The notes beneath the pieces were generated by a model. The model was not told the origin of the DNA and made no database searches. It saw only the letters and a program-made list of their open reading frames with translations. This document shows positions 14,332-30,174 of a stretch of 64,000 nt of DNA, in pieces. Position 1 is the first letter of the stretch; each line of letters starts with the position of its first letter. The position numbers were made by a program, and so were the translations under genes. Source of the stretch: Anaerofustis stercorihominis DSM 17244 (GTDB taxonomy: Bacteria; Bacillota; Clostridia; Eubacteriales; Anaerofustaceae); contig NZ_DS560015.1 of NCBI RefSeq assembly GCF_000154825.1, forward strand, positions 335,052-399,051. Reading direction: 5' to 3'.

Positions 14332-14757
14332 ATGGCGGGGTATAAACATGTAGAGGCGATGTTGTACGATTATCCTTTAAGGAAGAAGCAGATAGAGATA
14401 AACAGGCTGAAGATAAGAGAGCTGGAGCTTAGAAAGACGGAGCTTGGGGCAGTCGTTTACGACGGGATAAAGGTAGAAACTTCAAACATAAGCAACACTA
14501 CGGAGAAAGAAGCGATAGAGCTTTATCAATCAAAAGAAGTCTTGAATAAAAAAATAGAGAAAGACACTTTATTTTGTAAACGGATAGAGACGGCTATGAG
14601 TACACTCGGTGATACTGAAAGACTTATTGTAGAGGGGAAGTATTTTGAGGGGATGAGGGATTATGAGGTGTATAGGAGGTGCGGGGTAAGTAAGAGCGGG
14701 TATTATAGGCTAAAGAGAGGATTGATTGAAAAGATAGGAAGGATTATAAATGAATGA
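14332..14757 (+). CDS. ArpU/RinA-type late transcription regulator
   Basis: The 141-residue protein has a long helical N-terminal part and a C-terminal sigma-region-4-like helix-turn-helix (ERLIVEGKYFEGMRDYEVYRRCGVSKSGYYRLKRGLIEKI). This is typical of the ArpU/RinA group that switches on phage packaging and lysis genes. It precedes the terminase genes, as in many Gram-positive phages. A candidate target is the three-fold TTGGGACA repeat at 16402-16431. Confidence 0.75.
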   Translation: MAGYKHVEAMLYDYPLRKKQIEINRLKIRELELRKTELGAVVYDGIKVETSNISNTTEKEAIELYQSKEVLNKKIEKDTLFCKRIETAMSTLGDTERLIVEGKYFEGMRDYEVYRRCGVSKSGYYRLKRGLIEKIGRIINE

Positions 14758-15457
14758 TTTGATTAAAATAAATTATGAAAATGACAGACCGACTGTGCTT
14801 GGAAGAGATTTACATAGGATGTTGGAAGTAAACAGTAATTATACGACTTGGTTTAGAAGAATGTGTGAATATGGATTTACCGAAAATGCAGATTATTTAA
14901 CTTGCTTTCCTAATTTGGAAAGGGAAATTCATGGAGGACAGAATAAACAAGACCACCAGCTTACAATAGAAATGGCAAAAGAAATTTGTATGCTTCAGAG
15001 AAGCGAAAAGGGAAAGCAAATTAGACAGTACTTTATAGAAGTCGAAAGTCAGTTTAACACTCCCGAGCTTGTAATGGCAAGAGCTTTAAAAATGGCAGAC
15101 AGACAGATGAAGAAACTTCAAAATAAGTTAGAAACTGATAAACCGAAAGTGATTTTTGCGGACGCAGTCACATCTTCCAAACAGTCAATATTAATTGGAG
15201 AGCTTGCTAAGCTTTTAAAACAAAATGGAATTGAGATAGGTCAGAATAGACTTTTTTCGTGGCTCAGGGAGAACGGATATTTGATAAGAAGAAAGGGAAG
15301 TAATTATAATATGCCTACTCAAAGAAGTATGGATAAACACTTATTTGAAATAAAGGAAACAGCTATAACTCATAGTGACGGACACATCAGTATATCAAGG
15401 ACTCCTAAGGTAACGGGAAGAGGTCAGCAGTATTTTATAAATATTTTCTTGTCGTAG
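14750..15457 (+). CDS. Phage antirepressor, AntA/AntB plus KilAC domains
   Basis: The 235-residue protein has an N-terminal AntA/AntB-like domain (about residues 8-105: LGRDLHRMLEVNSNYTTWF...GKQIRQYFIEVE) and a C-terminal KilAC domain (GELAKLLKQNGIEIGQNRLFSWLRENGYL). Such proteins counter a repressor in other phages. It overlaps the ArpU-type gene by eight bases and is followed by a strong terminator. It is one of three antirepressor-like genes in this prophage. Confidence 0.85.
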   Translation: MNDLIKINYENDRPTVLGRDLHRMLEVNSNYTTWFRRMCEYGFTENADYLTCFPNLEREIHGGQNKQDHQLTIEMAKEICMLQRSEKGKQIRQYFIEVESQFNTPELVMARALKMADRQMKKLQNKLETDKPKVIFADAVTSSKQSILIGELAKLLKQNGIEIGQNRLFSWLRENGYLIRRKGSNYNMPTQRSMDKHLFEIKETAITHSDGHISISRTPKVTGRGQQYFINIFLS

Positions 15458-15465
15458 AGGATAAA

Positions 15466-15488
15466 GGCAACAAAAAGTTGTCTTTTTT
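15466..15488 (+). terminator. Terminator closing the early operon
   Basis: GGCAAC and GTTGTC pair around AAAAA and are followed by TTTTTT. It separates the antirepressor from cassette 1. Confidence 0.85.
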
Positions 15489-15529
15489 ATATTTTAGGCT
15501 TGACAATATAAAGAAATTTTAAATAACTA

Positions 15530-15558
15530 TTGACTTATGGTCGACCATAATGTATAAT
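15530..15558 (+). promoter_or_regulatory. Cassette 1 promoter with TATGGTCGACCATA operator
   Basis: TTGACT and TATAAT are 17 bases apart, and the 14-bp perfect palindrome TATGGTCGACCATA (15536-15549) fills most of the spacer. A repressor bound there would block RNA polymerase. Confidence 0.8.
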
Positions 15559-15616
15559 ATAATTACAGTTAATAAAACATTAACGAGTACGGAGGCAAGA
15601 GCCAGAAAGGGATATT

Positions 15617-15736
15617 ATGGAAAATGGAATGACCAATGAACAATTTAAAACAGTACTTGAAATGATTATAGAGATAATCAAATCGAGTGACAGCAAAGAA
15701 GAAGCAATAAAAAAAATAGAAGCCTTACTTAAATAA
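15617..15736 (+). CDS. 39-aa small protein, first gene of cassette 1
   Basis: The ORF MENGMTNEQFKTVLEMIIEI... ends KKIEALLK. AAAGG lies before the ATG. It is helical and acidic-basic, with no recognised family. It is present only in copy 1 of the cassette. Confidence 0.5.
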   Translation: MENGMTNEQFKTVLEMIIEIIKSSDSKEEAIKKIEALLK

Positions 15737-15759
15737 GCAAAGCTTCAAACACTGTTTAA

Positions 15760-15816
15760 GTATTGGGCGGTACTTGCCACCGTCCGATACTATATATATG
15801 ATAACATTTATGTTAT
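15760..15816 (+). ncRNA. Structured linker before RHH copy 1
   Basis: A 12-bp stem (15760-15771 with 15779-15790, two G-U pairs) has TTGCCACCG at its tip and 3' arm, followed by a second hairpin ATAACAT/ATGTTAT (15801-15816). It lies between the 39-aa ORF and the RHH gene. It repeats the two-hairpin layout seen before the 74-aa genes. Confidence 0.5.
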
Positions 15817-15835
15817 GAAAAGGCAAGATTGAGAG

Positions 15836-16024
15836 GTGTTTATTATAGATAGAAAGAAAATAGGCAGACCGACAAATAATCCCAGAAGTGAGAAAATCGG
15901 TTTTAGAATGTCAAAAAAAGAAATTGAGGATATTCAGAAATGTGCTGATGCGATGAATACTAAACGTGTAAATGCAGTTATAGAGGGAATATCTTTATTA
16001 AAGGAAAAATTAAAAATAAAATAA
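15836..16024 (+). CDS. RHH-type regulator, cassette copy 1
   Basis: The core KIGRPTNNPRSEKIGFRMSKKEIEDIQKCADAMNTKRVNAVIEGISLL is a short strand plus two helices, as in Arc/CopG proteins. It is homologous to the proteins at 18545 and 28937 (shared KIGRPTNNP). The only upstream standard start is GTG 15836, which lies inside the ribosome site GAGAGGTG; a rare start (ATT or ATA near 15842) is possible. It likely represses its own cassette. Confidence 0.65.
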   Translation: MFIIDRKKIGRPTNNPRSEKIGFRMSKKEIEDIQKCADAMNTKRVNAVIEGISLLKEKLKIK

Positions 16025-16029
16025 AAAAA

Positions 16030-16152
16030 GATGTAAGCTGCCACCGACTAAAGCCACAAGCTTACATCAAAACCGATAGAAGTATCTATCTATAAATATT
16101 TTACTATGGATTGAAACTTCTGTCAAATACAAAAAAATTTGAAAAGGAGTTT
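16030..16152 (+). ncRNA. Cassette RNA switch, copy 1
   Basis: Hairpin 1 is a 10-bp stem GATGTAAGCT/AGCTTACATC (16030-16039, 16059-16068) with TGCCACCG at its start. The arm ACTTCT (16116-16121) can pair with AGAAGT (16078-16083), or, extended to AAACTTCT, with the ribosome site AGGAGTTT (16145-16152; eight pairs, one G-U). The two pairings exclude each other, so the fold may control translation of the 74-aa gene. Confidence 0.6.
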
Positions 16153-16157
16153 TTTTA

Positions 16158-16382
16158 ATGGAAGAATATAGAATAATGATGGAATTATATTATAAGTCAC
16201 AAGATAGAGAAGATTATTATGAGTTGTATGAAAAGTATGTGGAACCTGAGCTTGGCAAAATAATGGAGAGTGAGAGCTTCAGCGATGTTGACGAATATGC
16301 GGGGAGCATATCGGCAAATTCGGAGATGTTGGGATTTGTGATGGGATTTAAGACTGCAATGGAGCTGATTATGGAGTGCTAA
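16158..16382 (+). CDS. 74-aa acidic protein, cassette copy 1
   Basis: The protein MEEYRIMMELYYKSQDREDYYELYEKYVEPELGK... is acidic and helical. Copies at 18840 and 29235 have the same length and share the C-terminal FSDVDE-AGS-SANSEMLGFVMGFK core. I do not recognise the family. AAAAGGAG precedes the start and lies in the RNA switch. In this copy no antirepressor follows; two terminators do. Confidence 0.7.
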   Translation: MEEYRIMMELYYKSQDREDYYELYEKYVEPELGKIMESESFSDVDEYAGSISANSEMLGFVMGFKTAMELIMEC

Positions 16383-16401
16383 AATTAATCCAAATTAAAA
16401 A

Positions 16402-16431
16402 TTGGGACAATTTTGGGACAATCTTGGGACA
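16402..16431 (+). promoter_or_regulatory. Triple TTGGGACA repeat, candidate late-gene control site
   Basis: TTGGGACA occurs at 16402, 16413 and 16424, exactly 11 bases apart (one helical turn). It stands before the terminase genes and could bind the ArpU-type activator. A -10-like TTATTATGTTATT follows at about 16450. Confidence 0.45.
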
Positions 16432-16474
16432 TTTTTTAAGAAAAAATGTGTTATTATGTTATTAGGGAATTAGA

Positions 16475-16533
16475 GGCAGAGTTAAAACTCTGTCTTTTTA
16501 GATATAAAACAGAGGCGAACCCTCTGTTTTTTT
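16475..16533 (+). terminator. Two tandem terminators before terminase
   Basis: GGCAGAGTT/AACTCTGTC with TTTTT (16475-16499) and CAGAGG/CCTCTG with seven T (16509-16533). They close cassette 1. Late transcription starting upstream would have to read through them. Confidence 0.8.
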
Positions 16534-16553
16534 AAGTAAACAGGGGGGTAAGA

Positions 16554-17000
16554 ATGGGAAAGGAAGGTAAATTGACACAGAAGCAGAAGCGTTTTTGTGA
16601 TGAATATATAATATGCTTAAATGCCACCGAGGCGGCTATCAAGGCGGGGTATGCGAAGAAGAGTGCGTACTCTATCGGGAGTGAGAACTTGAGAAAACCT
16701 GAAATAAAGGCTTATATAGACGAAAGGCTCAGTGAGATAAGGGGAAAGAAGATAGCGGAAGCCGAGGAGATAATGGAGTATCTGACATCGGTGGTAAGAG
16801 GAGAGAGCGAGTCGGAGATAGTGGTTATCGAAGGAGAGGGGCTTGGGGAGTCCAGTGCGAGGAAGATAAGGAAGAACCCGGATGAGAAAGAAAAGCTGAA
16901 GGCAGCGGAGCTGATCGGTAAGAGGTATGGACTGTTTACGGAGAAGGTGGAGCTGGACAGCAGCAAGAAAACTATAAAGGTGACGCTTACGGATGATTAA
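16554..17000 (+). CDS. terS: Terminase small subunit
   Basis: The 148-residue protein begins LTQKQKRFCDEYIICLNATEAAIKAGYAKKSAYSIGSENLRKPEI, the helix-turn-helix of the Terminase_2 family, followed by a helical oligomerisation part. It recognises phage DNA at the packaging start and loads the large subunit. Its stop overlaps the start of the large subunit gene by eight bases. Confidence 0.92.
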   Translation: MGKEGKLTQKQKRFCDEYIICLNATEAAIKAGYAKKSAYSIGSENLRKPEIKAYIDERLSEIRGKKIAEAEEIMEYLTSVVRGESESEIVVIEGEGLGESSARKIRKNPDEKEKLKAAELIGKRYGLFTEKVELDSSKKTIKVTLTDD

Positions 17001-18459
17001 TGAAAGTGAAATAAATATTGAAATATCAAAGAAAGTATTCAATGAGGTCTATCTTCCTTATATCGATAACGAAGACAGGCTTCTTATTTTTTACGGCGGT
17101 GCGGGAAGCGGGAAGAGCGTGTTCGTGGTACAGAGGTATGTGTATAAGATACTTAACAGTGATCTATGCAACGTACTTGTGGCAAGGAAGACGGGGAACA
17201 CCAACAGGACTTCTACCTTTGCACTGTTCAAGCAGGTCATTTATAAATGGAACTTGGGAGAGTATTTTCTGATTAACAAAAGCGATATGAGCATAACATG
17301 CAAGCTTAATAAAAATCAGATAATATTCAAAGGGCTTGACGACGTGGAAAAGATCAAATCCACGACATTTGAAACGGGAGAGCTTACGGATGTATGGATA
17401 GAGGAAGCCAGCGAGATAGAAGAGGACGACTACAAGCAGCTGAATGTACGTTTAAGAGGGGGAAAGAGCAAGAAGCAGATAGTGATGAGCCTTAACCCCA
17501 TAGATATAAATCACTGGATAAAGCTGAAGCTGATAAACGAAGACAAGGCTACATATCTTCATACCACTTATAAAGACAACAGGTTCATTGATGAGGATTA
17601 CAAGAGAGAGCTTGAGAGCTACAAGGACACGGATATATATTATTACAATGTGTACTGTCTGGGAATGTGGGGAGTTCTGGGAGACAGTGTATTCGATGTG
17701 GGTGTAGTGAACAATCAGCTTGCAAAGGACATAAGACCCGTAAAGAGGGGATATTTCTTATACGACTATGACGGGAAGGATATAACGAATATAAGGTGGA
17801 TAGAGGACGCGGGAGGATATATAAATATATACGAAGATGTGAAGGGGAGATATCCTTATGTTATCGGAGGAGATACTGCGGGAGACGGGAGCGACAACTT
17901 CACGGCTCATGTAATAAACAATGTAACGGGGCAGCAAGTATGCACAATGAAAAATAAATTTGATGAGGACTTATATGCAAGGCAGGTATACTGTCTGGGG
18001 AAATATTATAACGACGCACTGGTAGGGATAGAGGCGAACTACTCCACATATCCCAATAAGGAGCTTGAAAGACTTAAATATCCTAAAATGTATGTGAGAG
18101 AAAGAGAAGATACATACACAAAGAAGATGGTAAAAGCCTTCGGATTTGTGACTACTTCTTTGACGAGACCCATAATAATAGCAAACCTTATAAAAATAGT
18201 CAGAGAAGAGGGAGAGAAGATAGTGGATAAAGATACGCTGGAAGAAATGCTTACATTCGTAAGGAATGAGAAAGGCAGACCGGAAGCGGCAATGGGAGCC
18301 CACGACGACTTGGTAATGGGGCTTGCCATAGCATACAACATAAGAGAACAGCAGGAAATGACGATACCGAAAGAGAAGAGACCTAGACACTATAACTTTG
18401 AGGCAGAGAAGCCGAAGAGGGGGAGAAGTGATTTGGGGAGTGAGGTTAAGGTGGTTTAA
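16993..18459 (+). CDS. terL: Terminase large subunit (PBSX type)
   Basis: The 488-residue protein has the ATPase P-loop GGAGSGKS at residues 35-42, a Walker B-like DVWIEEASE near residue 133, and the nuclease domain starting with GGDTAGDGSDNF near residue 292 and a late HDDLVMGLAIA motif. It cuts concatemers and drives DNA into the head. It is directly followed by cassette 2, which separates it from the portal gene, an unusual place for an insertion. Confidence 0.95.
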   Translation: MINESEINIEISKKVFNEVYLPYIDNEDRLLIFYGGAGSGKSVFVVQRYVYKILNSDLCNVLVARKTGNTNRTSTFALFKQVIYKWNLGEYFLINKSDMSITCKLNKNQIIFKGLDDVEKIKSTTFETGELTDVWIEEASEIEEDDYKQLNVRLRGGKSKKQIVMSLNPIDINHWIKLKLINEDKATYLHTTYKDNRFIDEDYKRELESYKDTDIYYYNVYCLGMWGVLGDSVFDVGVVNNQLAKDIRPVKRGYFLYDYDGKDITNIRWIEDAGGYINIYEDVKGRYPYVIGGDTAGDGSDNFTAHVINNVTGQQVCTMKNKFDEDLYARQVYCLGKYYNDALVGIEANYSTYPNKELERLKYPKMYVREREDTYTKKMVKAFGFVTTSLTRPIIIANLIKIVREEGEKIVDKDTLEEMLTFVRNEKGRPEAAMGAHDDLVMGLAIAYNIREQQEMTIPKEKRPRHYNFEAEKPKRGRSDLGSEVKVV

Positions 18460-18485
18460 ATATTTTATAAAGGTATAAATATCTC

Positions 18486-18526
18486 TTGACTTTTGTTAGA
18501 CAATAATATATACTTATGTTAGACAA
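18486..18526 (+). promoter_or_regulatory. Cassette 2 promoter with 23-nt-spaced direct repeats
   Basis: TTGACT (18486-18491) and TATACT (18509-18514) are 17 apart. TGTTAGACAA occurs at 18494-18503 (in the spacer) and again at 18517-18526 (start site), 23 bases apart. It is a likely operator for the RHH protein encoded next. Confidence 0.75.
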
Positions 18527-18544
18527 AAGTTAGGAGGTGTAAAG

Positions 18545-18718
18545 TTGTCTAAAAAAATAGGGCGACCAACTAATAATCCGAAGCCTTATAAGCTTGGTGT
18601 TAGATTAAATGAAAAAGATAAAAAAATATTGGATTTATATTGTGAACAATATGAAGTTAATAAAAGTGAAGCTGTAAGTGCAGGGATAAAAAAGTTGGAA
18701 ACCGATATAAAAAAATAA
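18545..18718 (+). CDS. RHH-type regulator, cassette copy 2
   Basis: The 57-residue protein starts at TTG 18545 eight bases after AGGAGG. It reads SKKIGRPTNNPKPYKLGVRLNEKDKKILDLYCEQYEVNKSEAVSAGIKKLE, a strand followed by two helices as in Arc/CopG repressors. It is homologous to copies 1 and 3. Its promoter contains a pair of direct repeats fitting two helical turns, so it probably represses itself. Its stop codon is part of the RNA stem that follows. Confidence 0.75.
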   Translation: MSKKIGRPTNNPKPYKLGVRLNEKDKKILDLYCEQYEVNKSEAVSAGIKKLETDIKK

Positions 18719-18833
18719 GAGAAAAGGCTGTAGTTTGCCGACCGCACCTAATCTCTTATGCACCAGAGGTTACCCAACTGATAAATATATTATATCAGAT
18801 ACGGATACCTCAATCAATAAATTTAGGAGGTAT
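18716..18833 (+). ncRNA. Cassette RNA switch, copy 2
   Basis: Hairpin 1: TAAGAGA/TCTCTTA (18716-18722, 18752-18758), with TGCCGACCG in its loop. Then GAGGT (18766-18770) can pair with ACCTC (18807-18811) around an inner CTGATA/TATCAG hairpin, or ATACCTC (18805-18811) can pair with GAGGTAT of the ribosome site (18827-18833). Only one can form at a time. The first frees and the second hides the start of the 74-aa gene. Confidence 0.65.
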
Positions 18834-18839
18834 TTTTTA

Positions 18840-19064
18840 ATGGAAGAATATAAAAATATAATGCAGTTACATTATAAGTCACAGGATAAGCCGGAACATT
18901 ATGAATTATATAAAAAGTATGTGGAACCTGAAATAGATAAAATAATGAAGAGCGAGAGCTTCAGCGATGTTGACGAATGTGCGGGGAGCATATCGGCGAG
19001 TTCGGAGATGGTTGGATTTGTAATGGGATTTAAAACGGCAATGGAGCTGATTAAGGAGTGCTAG
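18840..19064 (+). CDS. 74-aa acidic protein, cassette copy 2
   Basis: The product MEEYKNIMQLHYKSQDKPEHYELYKKYVEPE... is the same length as copies 1 and 3 and shares the FSDVDECAGSISASSEM core. ATG 18840 follows TAGGAGGTATTTTTTA. Its stop TAG is one base from the ATG of the antirepressor, so translation of the two is probably coupled. A family name is not known to me. Confidence 0.7.
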   Translation: MEEYKNIMQLHYKSQDKPEHYELYKKYVEPEIDKIMKSESFSDVDECAGSISASSEMVGFVMGFKTAMELIKEC

Positions 19065-19065
19065 G

Positions 19066-19788
19066 ATGAACGAAATAAAGATATTTGAAAACAGTGAATT
19101 TGGAAGAGTAAGAGTTGAATTAATAAATAATGATATATATTTTTGTCTTAAAGATGTATGTGAGGCACTATCAATTACCAATACAACAATGGTTGCCAAT
19201 AGATTAGATGTAGATGAAGTGACTAAGTTAGATTTAGGCGGTAAATCAGGAAGTACCAATTTTGTAAATGAAAGTGGTTTATATTCTGTTATATTAAGAA
19301 GTGATAAACCCAATGCACAAAAGTTTAGGAAATGGGTAACATCGGAAATATTACCAAATATCAGAAAACACGGAGCATATATGACCGATGAGACGCTTGA
19401 GAAAGCTCTGTTAAGCCCTGATTTCCTTATCCAGCTTGCTAATCAACTTAAAGAAGCAAAAGCATTGAACAGTAAGCTGGCGGTAGATAATCAAATAATG
19501 AAGCCTAAGGCAGATTATTTCGACGAACTGGTGGAACGAAACACATTGACGAATTTTACGGAAACGGCTAAGGAACTGGGGATAAAAAGAAAAGTACTTA
19601 TAAACTTTCTTATTAATAAAAAATATATTTACAGAGACAAAAAGGGTAAGATACTTCCTTATGAAAGCAGAAATAAAGGATATTTTGAGATAAAAGAAAG
19701 CTTCAACAATAAAACTGACTGGAGCGGAGTACAAACTCTTATAACTCCCAGAGGAAGAGAAGCCTTTAAGCTCATGATAACGGGATAA
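19066..19788 (+). CDS. BRO-N antirepressor with KilAC-like C-terminus
   Basis: The 240-residue protein has a BRO-N domain (about residues 1-105: IFENSEFGRVRVELIN, DVCEALS, NESGLYSVILRS, KFRKWVTSEILPNIRK) and a KilAC-like DNA-binding end (TETAKELGIKRKVLINFLINKKYIYRDK). BRO/ANT proteins act as antirepressors or DNA-binding factors in phages. It lacks its own ribosome site and starts one base after the previous stop. It sits between terminase and portal genes. Confidence 0.85.
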   Translation: MNEIKIFENSEFGRVRVELINNDIYFCLKDVCEALSITNTTMVANRLDVDEVTKLDLGGKSGSTNFVNESGLYSVILRSDKPNAQKFRKWVTSEILPNIRKHGAYMTDETLEKALLSPDFLIQLANQLKEAKALNSKLAVDNQIMKPKADYFDELVERNTLTNFTETAKELGIKRKVLINFLINKKYIYRDKKGKILPYESRNKGYFEIKESFNNKTDWSGVQTLITPRGREAFKLMITG

Positions 19789-28936: not shown

Positions 28937-29113
28937 TTGTCTACTAAAATAGGTAGACCAACTGATAATCCTAAAGATAAAGAACGTTTGACTGTAAGGT
29001 TAGATAAAAAAAGTTCTGATATTTTAAATGAATATTGTAAACAGGAAAACGTTAATAAAGGGCAAGCAATAAGAAATGGGATAAAAAAGTTGGAAGCCGA
29101 TATAAAAAAATAA
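28937..29113 (+). CDS. RHH-type regulator, cassette copy 3
   Basis: The 58-residue protein starts at TTG 28937, after AGGAGG. It reads STKIGRPTDNPKDKERLTVRLDKKSSDILNEYCKQENVNKGQAIRNGIKKLE. It differs from copy 2 mainly in the strand region that would contact DNA (GVRLN versus TVRLD), in line with the different operator. The stop again lies within the following RNA stem. Confidence 0.75.
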   Translation: MSTKIGRPTDNPKDKERLTVRLDKKSSDILNEYCKQENVNKGQAIRNGIKKLEADIKK

Positions 29114-29228
29114 GAGAAAAGGCTGTAGTTTGGCGACCGCACCTAATCTCTTATGAACCAGAGGTTACCCTACTGATAAATATATTATATCAGATACGGA
29201 TACCTCAATCAATAAATTTAGGAGGTAT
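29111..29228 (+). ncRNA. Cassette RNA switch, copy 3
   Basis: It is nearly identical to copy 2: TAAGAGA/TCTCTTA (29111-29117, 29147-29153), GAGGT (29161-29165), ATACCTC (29200-29206) and GAGGTAT in the ribosome site (29222-29228). The few changes fall in loops, and all three switching arms are kept. Confidence 0.65.
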
Positions 29229-29234
29229 TTTTTA

Positions 29235-29459
29235 ATGAAAGAATATAAAAATATAATGGAACTATACTATAAGTCACTAGATAAGAAAGATTATCATAAA
29301 TTATATGAAAAGTATATAGATCCGGAATTTGACAAGATAATGAAAAGTAAAAGCTTTAGTGATGTTGACGAATGTGCGGGAAGCCTGGCTGCAAATGCTG
29401 AGATGTTAGGCTTTGTAATGGGTTTTAAATATGCAACGGATTTATGGAAGGAATGCTAA
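29235..29459 (+). CDS. 74-aa acidic protein, cassette copy 3
   Basis: The protein MKEYKNIMELYYKSLDKKDYHKLYEKYIDPE... keeps the FSDVDECAGSLAANAEMLGFVMGF core. Its TAA ends one base before the ATG of the next gene, so coupled translation is likely. Confidence 0.7.
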   Translation: MKEYKNIMELYYKSLDKKDYHKLYEKYIDPEFDKIMKSKSFSDVDECAGSLAANAEMLGFVMGFKYATDLWKEC

Positions 29460-29460
29460 T

Positions 29461-30174
29461 ATGAACGAAATAAAGATATTTGAAAACAGTGAGTTTGGAA
29501 GAGTAAGAAGTTTAATGATAGATAACGAGCCTTATTTTGTGGGAAAAGATGTAGCGGAGATATTGGGGTATGCAAAACCGCTTAATGCACTTGCTAATCA
29601 TATTGATGAATATGACTCCCTGAAACAGGGACTCATTGACAGCATGGGAAGAACACAAGAAACAATCTTCATTAACGAATCTGGTCTTTACAGTCTTATT
29701 CTTTCTAGTAAGTTACCGTCAGCAAAGAAATTCAAACGCTGGGTAACGAGCGAGGTACTGCCCAGCATAAGAAAGACAGGAGAGTATAAGACAACGGAAC
29801 CGATAAAGGAAATGCTTGCGGAGGCAAAGCTTAGGAATGCGAGGGCGAGGGAAGCTTCCATATGGCTTAAAATCGGTCAGAATATTAAGTCCGAGGATTA
29901 CAGGCAAATATGTTCTTCCTATGCGAGCGAGGCTTTGGCAGGCTCTGCGGTAATCCCGCTTCCTGAAGTTCGGGAAACATATTATACAGCAACGCAGTTA
30001 GGAGATATGCTGGGTATATCGGCTAACAGAATAGGAAGGATAGCAAACGAGCATAAACTGAAGACATCTAGGTTTGGTAAATGGTATCACGATAAGGGAA
30101 AAAACAGCAGTAAAGAAGTAGATGTATTCAGATATAATTCAGAAGGTTTGGAGCAAATAAAAAAATATATATAA
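29461..30174 (+). CDS. BRO-N antirepressor, cassette copy 3
   Basis: The 237-residue protein has a BRO-N domain whose first residues MNEIKIFENSEFGRVR are identical to those of the copy 2 gene. The C-terminal half is unrelated to it: TATQLGDMLGISANRIGRIANEHKLK is another helix-turn-helix. So the N-terminal domain is shared and the C-terminal part has been exchanged. An upstream in-frame start at 29431 lies inside the 74-aa gene and is not used here. Confidence 0.82.
   Translation: MNEIKIFENSEFGRVRSLMIDNEPYFVGKDVAEILGYAKPLNALANHIDEYDSLKQGLIDSMGRTQETIFINESGLYSLILSSKLPSAKKFKRWVTSEVLPSIRKTGEYKTTEPIKEMLAEAKLRNARAREASIWLKIGQNIKSEDYRQICSSYASEALAGSAVIPLPEVRETYYTATQLGDMLGISANRIGRIANEHKLKTSRFGKWYHDKGKNSSKEVDVFRYNSEGLEQIKKYI

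Follow-up and report, generated by a model that had tools for sequence, protein, structure and literature searches.

Arc-like repressor cassettes of an Anaerofustis stercorihominis prophage combine alternative leader pairings with a predicted antisense RNA

Introduction

What decides whether the ribosome site in the leader of a small prophage reading frame lies open or hidden? The question is raised by a prophage of Anaerofustis stercorihominis DSM 17244 that carries three control cassettes (copies 1, 2 and 3) inside the window, the whole stretch of 64,000 nt analysed here (GCF_000154825.1, contig NZ_DS560015.1, positions 335,052-399,051 of the forward strand). The layout of such a cassette is a small gene for an Arc-like ribbon-helix-helix (RHH) repressor, a leader of 110-150 nt, a small ORF and often an antirepressor gene. 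In copies 1-3 the gap between the RHH gene and the ORF is 120-130 nt, and the ORF encodes 74 amino acids. An initial annotation of copy 1, made from the sequence alone, described its leader as an RNA switch in which a middle arm pairs either with a first arm or with the ribosome site. The analysis below follows these pairings through related cassettes and reads the same leader on its opposite strand.

Results

Anatomy of the cassettes

The gene directly upstream of the leader matches phrog_876 in copies 1 and 2 and, weakly, RHH_1 in copy 3 (Table 1). The 74-aa ORFs match no Pfam or PHROG family, and as queries they returned the same prophage and two distant fragments only, the genome contigs yielding nothing. 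The RHH protein, not the 74-aa ORF, is the useful query for gathering relatives. An antirepressor target directly follows the 74-aa ORF in copies 2 and 3 but not in copy 1. An AntA/KilAC antirepressor gene at 14750-15457 lies just upstream of cassette 1, so that the prophage encodes at least three antirepressors. The palindrome TATGGTCGACCATA in the copy 1 sense promoter is likely the operator of the cassette repressor. No ATG, GTG or TTG stands at normal ribosome-site spacing at the beginning of the copy 1 RHH gene (15836-15850); ATT at 15842 and ATA at 15845 fit best, and a rare start codon may therefore be used.

Table 1. Features of the three cassettes, in window coordinates
Feature	Position	Strand	Remarks
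Copy 1 sense promoter	15530-15558	+	TTGACT-17-TATAAT; 11/12 consensus match
Copy 1 palindrome TATGGTCGACCATA	15536-15549		within sense promoter; common to L026, L028, L029, L096
Copy 1 39-aa ORF	15617-15736	+	precedes second antisense unit; relatives at same place in L029, L098, L100
Copy 1 second predicted antisense unit	15702-15826	-	just upstream of RHH gene; -35 at 15826, -10 at 15798, terminator hairpin 15746-15719 and T-run
Copy 1 Arc-like RHH repressor gene	15836-16024	+	phrog_876 'transcriptional repressor', E 3.8e-9; 73% identity to L024 RHH
Copy 1 predicted antisense RNA	16018-16091	-	about 70-80 nt; predicted promoter and terminator at its ends
Copy 1 predicted antisense terminator	16020-16068	-	hairpin 16030-16068, then minus-strand T-run 16029-16020
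Copy 1 arm 1 GATAGAAGT	16075-16083	+	within antisense footprint; pairs with 16116-16124
Copy 1 predicted antisense promoter	16098-16126	-	-35 TTGACA 16126-16121, 17 nt, -10 TAAAAT 16103-16098; 11/12 match
Copy 1 arm 2 AAACTTCTGTC	16114-16124	+	overlaps antisense -35 and spacer; pairs with arm 1 or 16145-16152
Copy 1 ribosome site (arm 3) AGGAGTTT	16145-16152	+	eight pairs with 16114-16121
Copy 1 74-aa ORF, controlled gene	16158-16382	+	ATG 16158; 77% and 68% identity to copy 2 and copy 3 ORFs
Copy 2 sense promoter	18486-18514	+	TTGACT-17-TATACT with GTTAGACA repeats
Copy 2 Arc-like RHH repressor gene	18545-18718	+	phrog_876, E 1.6e-12
Copy 2 predicted antisense RNA	18712-18782	-	fold z -3.2; -35 TTGATT 18817-18812, -10 TATAAT 18794-18789
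Copy 2 arms	18766-18833	+	GAGGT 18766-18770, ATACCTC 18805-18811, ribosome site GAGGTAT 18827-18833
Copy 2 74-aa ORF	18840-19064	+	
Copy 2 antirepressor, Bro-N and KilAC	19066-19788	+	Pfam Bro-N 3.5e-22, ANT 9.2e-23; starts 1 nt past 74-aa ORF stop
Copy 3 Arc-like RHH repressor gene	28937-29113	+	Pfam RHH_1 7e-4, just below cut-off
Copy 3 predicted antisense RNA	29107-29177	-	fold z -4.5; -35 29212-29207, -10 29189-29184; almost identical to the copy 2 RNA
Copy 3 arms	29161-29228	+	GAGGT 29161-29165, ATACCTC 29200-29206, ribosome site GAGGTAT 29222-29228
Copy 3 74-aa ORF	29235-29459	+	
Copy 3 antirepressor, Bro-N and HTH_17	29461-30174	+	Pfam Bro-N 9.7e-28; starts 1 nt past 74-aa ORF stop

Alternative pairings in the leader

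The three arms lie where they were first placed in copy 1 (AGAAGT at 16078-16083, ACTTCT at 16116-16121 and AGGAGTTT at 16145-16152), and the full set exceeds chance, appearing in 31 of 20,000 dinucleotide shuffles of the copy 1 leader. The first helix is longer than the six bases originally described: GATAGAAGT pairs with ACTTCTGTC (16116-16124) over nine pairs, one of them G-U. The alternative use of the middle arm is likewise confirmed, with AAACTTCT (16114-16121) forming the reported eight pairs with the ribosome site, again including one G-U. The arm hairpin taken by itself has a z of -3.8. By constrained folding the two forms of the copy 1 leader differ little in energy (-23.0 kcal/mol open, -24.5 kcal/mol closed); the corresponding values are -17.5 and -14.7 kcal/mol in copy 2 and -18.2 and -18.8 kcal/mol in copy 3.

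The statement that the arm sequences of copy 1 differ entirely from those of copies 2 and 3 was too strong: AGAAGT/ACTTCT and AGAGGT/ACCTC are separated by one compensated A-U to G-C exchange in the core. Because this comparison yields just one such exchange, the evidence for structure comes from related cassettes elsewhere.

A predicted antisense RNA on the opposite strand

A search with the RHH protein recovers related cassettes in viral contigs, Clostridia genomes and named phages; the named relatives are the Fusobacterium phages phiFN37 and Funu2, Clostridioides phages, Streptococcus phages and satellite phages. Downstream of the RHH gene these loci frequently carry a predicted promoter pointing back towards it. 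A minus-strand promoter with a score of 10.5 or more out of 12.5 is present in 86 of 139 non-redundant RHH-downstream regions, where shuffles lead one to expect 1.95 and the plus strand has nine at that score. The score is unreached in the other 53 regions, some of which are other RHH genes while others may lack the unit. These promoters cluster 64-91 nt past the RHH stop; the -10 box is TATAAT in 66/90, the spacing is exactly 17 in 79/90 and the -35 box is usually TTGAAA, TTGACA or TTGCCA. The best-conserved motif of the leader (TAAATNNATTATA ... TGTCAA) is this predicted antisense promoter, and the position and spacing of the copy 1 promoter are kept in related loci.

Of the two strands, only the minus strand shows a T-run after the hairpin at the RHH stop, which marks this hairpin as the predicted terminator for the promoter. 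Over the 9 nt past the hairpin in 73 loci, the mean T content is 6.1 on the minus strand and 0.7 on the plus strand, and at least five T of nine are found in 59/73 loci on the former against 0/73 on the latter. Predicted promoter and terminator together bound an antisense RNA of about 60-80 nt (typically near 70 nt) that spans arm 1 and the terminator hairpin. In copy 1 this RNA is predicted to fold into a small 5′ hairpin and the terminator hairpin at -25.9 kcal/mol (z -5.5), a value that none of 200 shuffles equalled. The antisense fold has a z below -2 in 72 of the 73 loci and the arm hairpin in 64, compared with three for control stretches inside ORF2. A search for U-turn motifs found TTTGG or TTTGC in the antisense loop of 27/73 loci and in the sense loop of 5/73, which is suggestive but not a rule. 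In the stretches 18716-18840 and 29111-29235 the predicted antisense RNAs of copies 2 and 3 differ by a few bases, one of which lies in the loop of the terminator hairpin (GCCGACC versus GGCGACC); this change could set the specificity of recognition. No published transcript of such an antisense RNA was found in a literature search.

Copy 1 contains a second predicted antisense unit, and its arrangement recurs in L024, L026, L029, L096 and L100. In L096 the promoter of this second unit is a perfect TTGACA-17-TATAAT (12/12) and overlaps the RHH ribosome site.

The description of the leader as an RNA switch thus captured the alternation of arm 2 between two partners and missed that the leader doubles as template for a predicted antisense RNA gene on the other strand. 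A self-contained switch, whether riboswitch, thermosensor or ribosome-stall attenuator, would sense a signal through the leader alone and flip the pairings. Such a device would account for arms that are real and conserved, yet it is improbable: the strongest conservation in the leader falls on the hexamers of a minus-strand sigma-70 promoter at exact spacing and not on a sense-strand aptamer, the upstream hairpin has the features of a terminator on the minus strand, and Rfam gave no relevant match at gathering score in the window or in 20 loci. Since the conserved motif is the predicted promoter of the antisense RNA and the hairpin its predicted terminator, the natural trigger would be that RNA rather than a ligand or heat.

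Conservation of both pairings across loci

The pairings were compared in 73 loci, found via the RHH gene and chosen for having a minus-strand promoter and a recognisable start. Because loop lengths vary, swapping was used instead of alignment covariation; fixed-column pair counts are blurred by loop-length changes, and a MAFFT alignment of the arms was too poor for pair counting. The swap test sets the partners belonging to each locus against partners exchanged between loci, with energies that are duplex or equilibrium estimates. A statistical covariation test had been named at the outset as a check on the proposed structure, and in this form it bears the structure out. Arm 1 and arm 2 pair at -17.0 kcal/mol with their own partners and at -8.3 kcal/mol when swapped (z -21.9), arm 2 and the ribosome site at -12.1 and -8.4 kcal/mol (z -12.4). 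The respective z values are -17.3 and -9.6 when swaps stay within the same Shine-Dalgarno core, -9.2 and -7.4 when they stay within RHH clusters, and -14.6 and -7.4 with one locus per RHH cluster. Both alternative pairings are kept across the 73 loci while their sequences change. The initial annotation's claim to this effect holds for the family; copy 1 set against copies 2 and 3 gives just one compensated exchange in the core.

Two readings that give the pairing no role in translation can be weighed against these values. The inverted repeat around the antisense -10 box might be a DNA operator through which a protein governs the antisense promoter, RNA pairing being incidental. The centre of the repeat does lie close to the -10 box, and sequence variation is also seen among the operator-like repeats that related phages have in their sense promoters, but an operator leaves the third arm unexplained, and with the arm 2-ribosome site pairing kept even at one locus per RHH cluster we regard it as highly unlikely. 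Transcriptional interference alone, with collision between the two promoters, which do converge, and a small RNA that has no pairing role, is scarcely credible; it explains neither a terminated and structured RNA of about 70 nt, nor the conserved arms, nor the complementarity to the ribosome site.

The placement of the arms bears on how an antisense RNA could act on them. Arm 1 is inside the antisense footprint, arm 2 lies in the promoter spacer and -35 box and so outside the RNA, and the ribosome site is further on, beyond the antisense -35 box in copies 1-3 and in nearly all other loci. A block in trans of the P22 sar kind, in which the 5′ part of the antisense RNA, resembling the complement of the ribosome site, would pair with that site directly, draws on a weak extra complementarity between the two (own -8.6, swapped -7.6, z -3.6). 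This is far weaker than the pairing within the message, and it follows from the complementarity that arm 1 and the ribosome site each have to arm 2. In nearly all 73 loci, moreover, the predicted antisense start point lies on the upstream side of the ribosome site, which makes full-length coverage impossible. Direct blocking is accordingly judged as improbable as the self-contained switch.

Proposed mechanism

It is likely that binding of the antisense RNA would take arm 1 away and thereby close the ribosome site, as in plasmid pSK41, and that the cassette is a doubly locked immunity module of temperate phages. By analogy with P22, the sense promoter would be shut by the Arc-like repressor encoded in its own operon. 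A strong promoter on the opposite strand of the leader is predicted to make an RNA of about 70 nt that ends at the terminator over the repressor stop. In a fresh leader arm 1 would sit on arm 2, leaving the ribosome site free and both the small ORF and the coupled antirepressor translatable. Arm 2 is made before the ribosome site, and the arm 1-arm 2 helix should therefore form first. It is also the stronger of the two pairings in 68/73 loci, as expected if the open form is the default. The equilibrium computed for copies 1 and 3 leans slightly towards the closed form when no antisense RNA is present, and an open default there thus rests on the order of co-transcriptional folding. An antisense RNA bound to the leader would mask the terminator hairpin and arm 1, and the freed arm 2 would shut the ribosome site. 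Messages leaking past the protein repressor would in this way be silenced at translation and the induction gene kept silent. From these elements we infer that the antisense RNA is made, that it pairs with the leader and that the switch runs in this direction.

Discussion

The immI region of P22 has the same order of an RHH repressor gene (arc), an antisense RNA of about 70 nt (sar) and an antirepressor (ant) as the target. There, too, the antisense terminator overlaps the stop of the repressor gene and the promoter lies about 77 nt downstream. The sar promoter, however, is inside ant, so that sar covers the ant ribosome site, whereas here the promoter lies ahead of the ribosome site, the antirepressor comes after a small ORF and an arm of the message would do the closing. 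Covering the ribosome site of the target is a defining feature of sar, and the predicted RNA, which does not do so, is set apart from it.

Closing of a distant site has its parallel in the staphylococcal RepA_N plasmid pSK41, whose RNAI, an antisense RNA of about 83 nt with two stem-loops, binds the rep leader and brings about a stem in which the ribosome site is hidden (PMC5703833). Both leaders have mutually exclusive pairings, of which one hides the ribosome site and the other is, or in the present case would be, disrupted by antisense binding, and the copy 1 antisense RNA is also predicted to have a small 5′ hairpin and a terminator hairpin. In pSK41 the target is plasmid replication (rep) and not prophage genes, the RNAI target is about 100 nt upstream of the start site, and no RHH gene or antirepressor is described there. 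The present family would appear to combine the P22 layout with pSK41-type closing of a distant ribosome site.

CopG of plasmid pMV158 is an RHH protein. In the copG - RNAII - repB region of this plasmid a repressor and an antisense RNA together hold down the gene that follows them in one operon (PMC5703833); the 48-nt RNAII differs in that it begins within repB and pairs immediately ahead of a ribosome site that is atypical, and what is controlled is replication, not lysogeny. The c4 RNA is cut from the sense transcript itself, and the small ORF ahead of ant in P1 is Icd. As an antisense RNA controlling an antirepressor, c4 of P1 and P7 (PMC12197685) resembles the present case in acting on an antirepressor operon via a small ORF ahead of ant; here the RNA would come from the opposite strand, and Rfam has no match. 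C4-type control was dropped on finding the opposite-strand promoter; neither the window nor 20 loci matched the C4 covariance model at gathering score, and 15400-19100 gave no match to it at E 5.

Antirepressor-type genes (Bro-N, KilAC/ANT, Rha, ORF6N) make up seven of ten downstream genes tested in the related loci; by eye, others are of different kinds. In L024, L096 and L080 the gene after ORF2 encodes not an antirepressor but a small protein whose start resembles LTGQ(K/R)FGRL, which indicates that the control unit is attached to other cargo as well. Further solitary units (L106, L113, L119, L127, L141 and L101) stand among chromosomal genes of the host outside the window, with the RHH gene, antisense promoter, arms and a second ORF of about 50 aa that is often RHH-like; one is near an infC-like gene, and no antirepressor was seen with any of these six. 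We give an even chance to the broader reading that RHH repressor, antisense RNA and ribosome-site switch form a portable cassette that has spread across Bacillota and Fusobacteria, in phages, satellite phages and chromosomes alike, and has acquired many target genes. Arms and kissing loops would then diversify as specificity groups, copies 2 and 3 belonging to one group and copy 1 to a distinct one on which a second antisense RNA is stacked.

P22 sar and the c4 RNA of P1/P7 are among the antirepressor-controlling RNAs named in a 2025 review of small RNAs from phages (PMC12197685), and a limited literature search found no Gram-positive case of such an RNA. The data point to a widespread counterpart of sar and c4 in phages and satellites of Clostridia, Streptococcus and Fusobacterium. 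It would take a different route, the predicted antisense RNA closing the ribosome site without touching it. The control unit is an annotation target absent from Rfam, and for many gut and oral prophages it offers an explanation of lysogeny control and of superinfection specificity that can be tested.
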